Origin: Achromobacter insuavis
GTDB taxonomy: Bacteria > Pseudomonadota > Gammaproteobacteria > Burkholderiales > Burkholderiaceae_B
Length of the DNA: 64,000 nt
Assembly: GCF_902859645.1 (NCBI RefSeq)
Contig: NZ_CADIJR010000005.1
Span: 62,001-126,000, forward strand
Reading direction: 5' to 3'
This document shows, in pieces, positions 45-27,437 of this stretch; position 1 is the first letter of the stretch, and every line of letters begins with the position of its first letter. Under the pieces are notes generated by a model, which was not told where the DNA came from, did not search any database, and saw only the letters and a list, made by a program, of their open reading frames with translations. The position numbers were made by a program, and so were the translations under genes.

Positions 45-226
45 GCCTAAAAAAAAGCCCGAGATCGTGAGATCTCGGGCTAAATCCACCAAAGGAGGAG
101 GGTGGAGGAGACAACCTTGGCATGCTGGGAGCCGCTTTCGCTCACTGCGCTGTCGGGGTTCTGTGGTGCTTGTCCTGCTTGGACTTTGCTTTTGAACCGC
201 GCCGACTGCGTTTCAACATCCGATGA
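45..226 (-). ncRNA. candidate small RNA with anti-Shine-Dalgarno hairpin
   Basis: A transcript of about 180 nt is predicted from the promoter at 232-260 and the terminator at 49-80. Three structures are visible on the minus strand. The first is a two-part stem pairing 194-206 with 152-161 (GTCGG/CGAC and GGTTC/GAACC). The second is a 5-bp hairpin (86-105, CCACC/GGTGG) whose loop is CTCCTCCTTT, complementary to Shine-Dalgarno sequences, with another CTCCT just before the stem. The third is the terminator. Loops that display CCUCC motifs are the hallmark of the CcsR/cuckoo RNAs of alphaproteobacteria, so the shape suggests a trans-acting RNA that either binds SD regions or mimics 16S anti-SD. 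That role is inferred. No coding gene other than a possible 25-codon basic peptide (142-219) fits the transcript. Confidence 0.6.
49..80 (-). terminator. intrinsic terminator of the small RNA
   Basis: A perfect 10-bp stem (57-66 with 71-80), a GTGA tetraloop and an eight-T tail on the minus strand (49-56). The orientation fits leftward transcription only. Confidence 0.85.
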
Positions 227-231
227 GATGC

Positions 232-260
232 ATAGTATCGGGTTTTTTTGTGCGATGCAA
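232..260 (-). promoter_or_regulatory. sigma-70-like promoter of the small RNA
   Basis: On the minus strand TTGCAT (255-260) and TACTAT (232-237) are separated by exactly 17 bp, which includes a seven-A run. This is one of the best matches to the sigma-70 consensus in the window. The expected start is near 224-226, and the only strong downstream element is the terminator at 49-80. Confidence 0.65.
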
Positions 261-538: not shown

Positions 539-1216
539 TCAGATGCGGTAGGCGGTCGTCGTCATGACCTTGGACATCGCCCGCATGGCGGCCTTGACCG
601 GACCGGGCAGCGGCACGCCGCCCGCGGCTTCGGCGCTGGCGCGGTGCTGGGCCTCGTCTTCCTTCATCTTCTGCACGATCTGGCGCGAGCGGGCATCCTG
701 CTCGGGCAGGGTGCGCAGATGCCCTTCCAGGTGCGCCTCGACCTGTTTTTCGGTTTCGGCCATGAAGCCCAGGTTGCGCGGCGCGCCCGCATAACCGGCC
801 AGCAGGCCCAGCGCGAACGAGCCCGCGTACCAGACCGGATTGAGCAGGCTGGGGCGGCTGCCCAGCTCGGTCAGGCGCTGGTTGCACCACACCAAGTGGT
901 CGACTTCCTCGCCGGCGGCCTCGAGCAACAGGGCGCGCGGGCCGGGTTCGCGGCACACCGCGGCCTGCCCGCGGTACAGCGCCTGGGCGCAGACTTCGCC
1001 CACGTGGTTGACCCGCATCAGCCCGGCCGCGTGGCGCTTTTCCTGCGCCGACAAGGTGTCCGGCGCCTCTTCGGCCGTGGCCGGATTGGGCCGGCCGGCG
1101 CTGGCGCTGCCGGACAGCACGCGCAGCGCGCGGTCGGCTTCCGCCAACAGTGCATCCAGCGGATTCGAGCGGCGCAGGAAGGCGGCGGGACCGGATTGGG
1201 ACAAGGTGGGGGACAT
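539..1216 (-). CDS. coq7: 2-nonaprenyl-3-methyl-6-methoxy-1,4-benzoquinol hydroxylase Coq7
   Basis: Di-iron monooxygenase of ubiquinone biosynthesis that hydroxylates ring position C6 of demethoxyubiquinol at the inner membrane. The 225-residue product shows the Coq7 helices with diiron ligands: [12 protein letters not shown] with its Glu, [10 protein letters not shown] with the E-x-x-H pair, [12 protein letters not shown] and MKEDEAQH. The helix [14 protein letters not shown] is the usual membrane-associated segment. The frame is open upstream to 1300, but the ATG at 1216 is preferred because AGGAG lies just upstream and the homologous region begins there. It is divergent from the OsmC gene. 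Confidence 0.93.
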
Positions 1217-1330
1217 GGACGGCTCCTGGATTGGCCGCACACCCCTGATGCGGGGCGGGGCTCTCAAGCGGAATTGTACGCAACGGGTATCATCAGCCAT
1301 TGACTGCGCTCAAGCACAAGGACCTGACAA

Positions 1331-27012: not shown

Positions 27013-27100
27013 GCGCGGATACTCCGGAGCGGCAGCGGTGCCAGGGTTACGGAATGCCGCTGACGGACAGGAAACGCCCGCGCAACGGCTGAATTTTCCG

Positions 27101-27211
27101 CCCCTCTGTCCTTTTGCCTGAGAGTTGCCCCGCGTGGCGGGTTTGCACCTTCGGCGCCTGGGCTGCGCGCTATGTCCCTGTTTGGGCAGCGGCGCCAGGT
27201 CTCTCCAGAGT
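27101..27211 (-). promoter_or_regulatory. glycine riboswitch
   Basis: Read on the minus strand, the leader holds the conserved glycine aptamer elements: CTCTGGAGAGACC at the 5' side, GGCGCCGAAGGTGCAAACC in the middle and CTCTCAGGCAAAAGGACAGAG at the 3' side. It ends about 90 nt before the gcvT ATG. I see only one clear aptamer rather than the classic tandem. It should couple gcvTHP expression to glycine, usually switching the operon on when glycine is high. Confidence 0.92.
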
Positions 27212-27437
27212 GCTGCTTTGCCGCGTCCGCGCGGTAAAAACCGGGACAGGGCAAACATGCGCGGTATGGGATACCTGAGCGATTCTGGGCGAATTGCGCC
27301 TTCGGCGGCGACCGCGGGCGGCCGCTCTCTCCCGCAACATGCGTGACAGCGCCGAAAGCATACCGCGAAACGCCGCTGCGTTGTTGATCCACGGCCTAGA
27401 TCCGCGGCCGTGGGCCGCCCCCCCACGCAACGCCCGC

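Follow-up and report, generated by a model that had tools for sequence, protein, structure and literature searches.

The window analysed here, the whole 64,000-nucleotide stretch of the Achromobacter insuavis genome, carries near its beginning, on the minus strand, a small RNA (sRNA) that is very probably, judging from sequence, an orthologue of the Bordetella sRNA S17/CT_433 and a member of the Rfam family RF02278. The sRNA gene is genuine and was previously described. Because it is RF02278 and the S17/CT_433 orthologue, the novelty implied by the original prediction for this locus is unsupported. In an Rfam search of the 64-kb window, positions 49-113 (-) matched RF02278, “Betaproteobacteria toxic small RNA”, with 69.2 bits (cut-off 50, E = 6.9e-12); the alignment spans the full model (1-64 of 64), and RF02278 is the sole Rfam family above its cut-off at the locus. 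The genome holds a single copy. The proposed orthology to S17 is argued from position and parts, since both genes have the same promoter hexamers, spacer, coq7 neighbour and strand, and a glycosyltransferase gene on the opposite side. The analysis itself supplies sequence, predicted structure, synteny, conservation and candidate target sites, and an S17-like function in A. insuavis would follow by analogy with the orthologue.

The promoter, leader, CU-rich stretch, hairpin and terminator all lie within 260-49 (-), and the features considered are as follows.

255-260, minus strand: -35 element TTGCAT, the same as in the reported S17 promoter
232-237, minus strand: -10 element TACTAT, 17-nt spacer from the -35 element, also the same as in S17
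49-224, minus strand: predicted full-length transcript, S17L orthologue, about 176 nt, start placed near A224 by analogy with 5' rapid amplification of cDNA ends (5'-RACE) on S17
49-113, minus strand: predicted processed form, S17S orthologue, about 65 nt, equal to the RF02278 match, processing site borrowed from S17
104-112, minus strand: Site 1, CU-rich seed GUCUCCUCC (= GTCTCCTCC), preceding the hairpin and overlapping its stem
85-106, minus strand: Site 2 hairpin, 6-bp stem and 10-nt loop CUCCUCCUUU (= CTCCTCCTTT) at 100-91, from fold and conservation
49-81, minus strand: intrinsic terminator, 11 pairs at 81-56 and a U-run to 49
119-221, minus strand: predicted leader domain closed by helix 1, formed by GGAUGUUG (221-214) and CAGCAU-bulge-CC (127-119)
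142-219, minus strand: leader open reading frame (ORF) of 25 codons, the sole ORF weighed on this strand, judged not to be a conserved gene
539-1300, minus strand: coq7, the conserved upstream neighbour (PF03232, 147.2 bits)

Most parts named in the original prediction were recovered. The minus-strand promoter TTGCAT-17-TACTAT was confirmed at 260-255 and 237-232, the further CU-rich stretch said to precede the hairpin is GTCTCCTCC at 112-104, and the terminator was found as listed. Of the hairpin, the 10-nt loop stood, whereas the stem has six pairs instead of five (TCCACC/GGTGGA, 106-101 paired with 90-85). A transcript of 170-190 nt had been proposed, and the predicted precursor of about 176 nt, its start placed by analogy, falls within that range. 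A simple promoter scan did not list TTGCAT-17-TACTAT, because the scan demands nine of 12 consensus letters and this promoter matches seven. The fold of 49-227 reached -63.7 kcal/mol (z -3.29), and two of 200 shuffles were at least as stable.

The covariance-model search suggested in the original prediction placed RF02278 over its cut-off in all 43 same-genus genomes, our own included, and in 234 of 250 family genomes, our own and the genus members included. At order level, 188 of 300 genomes matched at E <= 0.001, 114 of these over the cut-off, and none of the 14 control genomes searched for RF02278 matched. Sixteen family genomes had no match: nine of 0.7-0.9 Mb, two of 1.6-1.7 Mb and five others, four of which are less than 90% complete. 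All nine family genomes below 1 Mb are thus without RF02278, as are the two of 1.6-1.7 Mb (groups g7, g39 and g23), and the absence from small genomes looks like loss with genome reduction. Copy number was observed to vary as well: 15 of the 16 listed g34 family genomes have 2-5 copies, and nine of 11 g43 family genomes have two, with starts 376-535 nt apart in the seven for which places are listed.

Conservation was assessed on 61 loci, namely our own, loci from 30 of the 43 genus genomes and 30 loci from the 250-genome family draw, taken as best-scoring matches. The 29-nt core TGTCTCCTCCACCCTCCTCCTTTGGTGGA is identical in 57 of them and carries single changes in the other four (one locus; three loci). 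The upstream neighbour on the same strand is coq7 in 57 of the 61 loci, and one of the four exceptions has a short flank. The promoter TTGCA[TA]-17-TA[CA]TAT is present in 31/31 same-genus loci, our own included, and on its other flank the window sRNA has a gene for a family 4 glycosyltransferase (PF00953). In 21 of 80 named coq7 loci, all inside the first 23 rows and mainly from Achromobacter, Bordetella, Alcaligenes and other Alcaligenaceae, the fetched DNA contained the exact stretch; the best coq7 matches were Achromobacter (87% and 84%). L070 and L071, the two of these 23 rows without the exact stretch, both have CTCCTCC shortly 3' of coq7. In the fetched DNA of the 57 other named loci (L086-L142) neither the exact nor the loose pattern matched.

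Inside the genus the anti-Shine-Dalgarno (aSD) hairpin is invariant and therefore uninformative on pairing, so order-level sequences were used. These 21 sequences, the window plus 20 from 19 genomes, were hand-picked from order matches over the cut-off, and divergent or lost copies are consequently under-represented. Pairing in the stem holds in 98.4% of cells, and three of the six pairs show both-sided changes (7 cells). Only four of 500 shuffles had three such pairs; slid versions of the hairpin had at most one, with a best covariation score of 0.139 vs 0.198. Within Site 1, UGUCUCCUC is invariant in 21/21 sequences. The loop keeps CTCCTC in 20 of 21, L182 keeping neither CTCCTC nor CTCCTCC. 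Therefore, the expectation that relatives preserve the loop and its stem held for the core and for the pairing, but full CTCCTCC is kept in only 16 of the 21 hairpins. In the terminator, three pairs have both-sided changes within the genus, all from one locus (L002).

These data bear on the simplest alternative, a chance pattern without an RNA product. The hairpin by itself is unremarkable, because 32 of 100 Markov resamples of the window, with both strands scanned, contained a 5-bp stem whose 7-12 nt loop includes CTCCTCC. Chance does not account for the element as a whole, given its Rfam E-value and its conservation in relatives; synteny points the same way, and this explanation retains virtually no probability. 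It was rejected on the RF02278 score together with the conservation in genus and family genomes and across the 61 loci.

If the window RNA works as S17 does, a housekeeping sigma promoter would yield a precursor of about 176 nt ending at the intrinsic terminator, and RNase E would cleave just 3' of the leader to leave about 65 nt as a stable product. Assisted by Hfq, this product would then use its seed GUCUCCUCC and its hairpin loop CUCCUCCUUU to base-pair with Shine-Dalgarno regions in a number of mRNAs, of which many serve nutrient uptake, and this pairing would block translation. The evidence for such a scheme comes from Bordetella pertussis. S17, located between the glycosyltransferase gene BP3151 and coq7 (BP3152), is transcribed as a 190-nt RNA that RNase E shortens to 67 nt, as indicated by RNase E tests in E. 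coli and by rne mutants (PMC11722255). It is Hfq-dependent and pairs with ribosome-binding sites via CU-rich stretches (PMC11722255, PMC12235514), and Bvg control has been reported for it (PMC11722255). Deletion of S17 raises 92 genes according to the abstract and 91 according to the results; 70 raised genes match single-stranded sites of S17, almost always at positions where base-pairing would be expected to interfere with ribosome binding, and 32 transporter-related genes or operons are among the candidates (PMC11722255). Compensatory changes confirmed that Site 1 pairs with BP2158, and a reporter assay in E. coli supplied with B. pertussis Hfq demonstrated that S17 represses BP2158 directly (PMC11722255). 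CT_433, the same RNA as S17, had 36 chimeric partners in RNA interaction by ligation and sequencing (RIL-seq); CT_521, the other main Hfq hub, had 22, the two accounted for >73% of sRNA-mRNA chimeras, and their targets have a Shine-Dalgarno-like motif in common (PMC12235514). The idea that the window encodes an sRNA with anti-Shine-Dalgarno stretches is thus borne out by its orthologue, which is transcribed, Hfq-dependent and recovered in chimeras with mRNAs that carry Shine-Dalgarno-like motifs (PMC11722255, PMC12235514), and the mechanism guessed at in the original prediction was largely right.

In B. pertussis, CT_521 adjoins rpoH (PMC12235514). In our own genome, rpoH is closely followed on its own strand by a CU-rich hairpin (10-bp stem) together with a terminator (locus L160, about 1181-1262 (-)), and by analogy this hairpin may be the counterpart of CT_521. 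An Rfam search of the rpoH locus gave no match at this hairpin and one weak match elsewhere in the locus.

In our own genome, the Site 1 complement GGAGGAGAC stands 2-10 nt before an ATG at 17 places, among them the sRNA locus itself, whereas the reversed pattern does so at one. Pfam was run on 10 ORFs of the 16 other places, the candidate target sites. The short ORFs L145, L154 and L157 were excluded, as were the longer L147, L155 and L158; inspection by eye suggests that L147 lies inside a gene for a chemotaxis receptor and that L158 is in a wrong frame. All 10 ORFs matched a Pfam family. Six are transport parts (three TctC receptors, two Peripla_BP_6 and one MFS), and the others are one each of LysR, GFA, 2Fe-2S thioredoxin-like and Chalcone_3. 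The transport share is in line with the transporter-related candidates of S17. Because GGAGGAG is itself a good Shine-Dalgarno sequence, these sites are candidates and do not prove targeting.

The loop and the 3' end of the 16S rRNA of the same genome have CCTCCTTT in common (8 identical nt). A 16S tail pattern ending in TTTCT had no match in this genome, and a shorter pattern had one copy, with the tail CCTCCTTTCAGAG. This shared stretch fits the view, also raised in the original prediction, that the RNA mimics 16S rRNA, acting as a ribosome decoy that damps translation globally and not as a regulator of chosen targets. In the same direction, RF02278 is named for growth inhibition in E. coli, according to papers citing that work, and overexpression of the Burkholderia member ncS27 slows planktonic growth (PMC5688073). 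However, overexpression of S17S left exponential growth unimpaired and only modestly impaired entry into stationary phase, the genes raised by loss of S17 form a limited set (92 or 91), and seed-specific compensatory mutations act on BP2158 (PMC11722255). We therefore regard the decoy as unlikely and favour pairing with selected mRNAs.

Several observations nevertheless weigh against reading the element as a conserved regulator that works as S17 does. GGAGGAGAC holds the generic Shine-Dalgarno core, so part of the 17-to-1 excess is expected without any sRNA. No RF02278 match was obtained in 112 of the 300 order genomes, and full CTCCTCC is missing from five of the 21 order-level hairpins. Two of four further S17 candidates, BP0442 and BP1445, showed no reporter effect (PMC11722255). 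The abundance of CT_433 is very low in B. hinzii (PMC12235514), and expression therefore varies. The S17 cut is printed as GU/GU (PMC11722255), whereas the window reads GGUUGUC without GUGU, which leaves the exact processing cut in the window uncertain.

The leader upstream of this cut could be read as a gene or as a structure. The former would make the RNA a dual-function mRNA whose leader codes for a conserved basic peptide (MLKR.RRG...). An ATG lies at about +6 of the predicted transcript, the first eight codons are largely conserved across 31 loci, 15 of these loci have in common a 36-codon ORF that stops shortly past the hairpin, and a 32-residue ORF has been noted in S17 (PMC11722255). 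The frame of the ATG relative to the core, however, is split over classes 2, 1 and 0 in 16, 9 and 6 of the 31 loci; ORFs starting at the matching ATG range from 14 to 105 codons (two of 105 codons), and some of the conserved letters belong to helix 1. A leader peptide is therefore very unlikely as a general explanation. It is not general and it is broken in the window, where the 25-codon ORF at 219-142 has no frame conserved over the 31 loci, in keeping with the original statement that there was no convincing ORF. Part of the genus may nonetheless make a peptide, given the 36-codon ORF shared by 15 loci.

As for structure, the eight pairs of helix 1 are unbroken in 28/28 distinct rows. Its variation comprises one both-sided change (UA to CG) and three changes of UA to UG, and since six of the eight pairs never vary, support for the helix is thin. 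We tentatively propose, at slightly less than even probability, that the leader is a conserved structural module in which GGAUGUUG and CARCAU-bulge-CC would close a 5' domain before the RNase E site and so time the release of the short form. If true, such a module would explain a leader that is conserved at its start yet varies by about 30 nt in the middle.

Taken together, the class to which this element belongs is significant as a short, near-invariant RNA present in one copy in most family genomes searched, and RF02278 RNAs may tune uptake and metabolism genes across Alcaligenaceae. The local copy adds a further species, a test of the leader peptide and a list of candidate target sites, and opens no new question. 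Elsewhere in the window, Rfam matched tandem glycine riboswitch aptamers at 27096-27344 (-), with 53.3 and 48.4 bits.

Several sub-threshold Rfam matches (NmsRb, anti-hemB and ncS16) fall within window 49-145 (-), which hints at a possible superfamily uniting several betaproteobacterial Rfam families. Weak matches were also obtained to SorY (24.5 of 111 bits), SorX (20.6 of 46.6 bits) and suhB/mmgR (18.4 of 41 bits, below its cut-off), which we take to be alphaproteobacterial Rfam families. The original prediction had likened the RNA to the cuckoo RNAs, and membership in the alphaproteobacterial cuckoo/CcsR/alpha-r14 family could draw on the SorX and SorY matches, on the shared design of aSD seeds in unpaired stretches and on the CCUCCUCCC carried by alpha-r14 members (PMC10746234). 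The SorY and SorX scores are below their cut-offs, however, and the RF02278 match is far better. A search of our own genome for PF06568 (DUF1127, CIN1 locus) found none at E <= 0.001, with 150 of 176 first-look candidates scored. Membership thus failed both tests made, Rfam cut-offs and DUF1127 association; it is extremely unlikely and, for these two reasons, unsupported. What stands of the proposed kinship is the manner of working, which is like that of cuckoo/alpha-r14 RNAs.

Of the known systems compared, the alpha-r14 RNA NfeR1 likewise uses aSD motifs in unpaired regions to block translation starts, but it has three aSD hairpins and is Hfq-independent (PMC10746234), and CcsR differs in having a DUF1127 partner gene (PMC10253847). 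Neisseria NmsRA/NmsRB resemble the window RNA in their UC-rich aSD stretches between the stem-loops SL1 and SL2 and in the SL2 loop (PMC5362039), although the window scores only 35.6 bits against NmsRb (RF02877), below the cut-off of 52. Also similar are the Burkholderia RF02278 sRNAs ncS03, ncS05, ncS27 and ncS62, which have two hairpins and CU-rich unpaired stretches and of which ncS27 is likewise processed; Burkholderia has three to five homologues per genome (PMC5688073), whereas the window's genome has one. The closest system is S17/CT_433, with identical -35, spacer and -10, the coq7 neighbour and the terminator layout (PMC11722255, PMC12235514), and with a CU-rich 27-nt processed core reported as common to betaproteobacteria (PMC11722255). 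The S17 precursor measures 190 nt, compared with about 176 nt predicted for the window.
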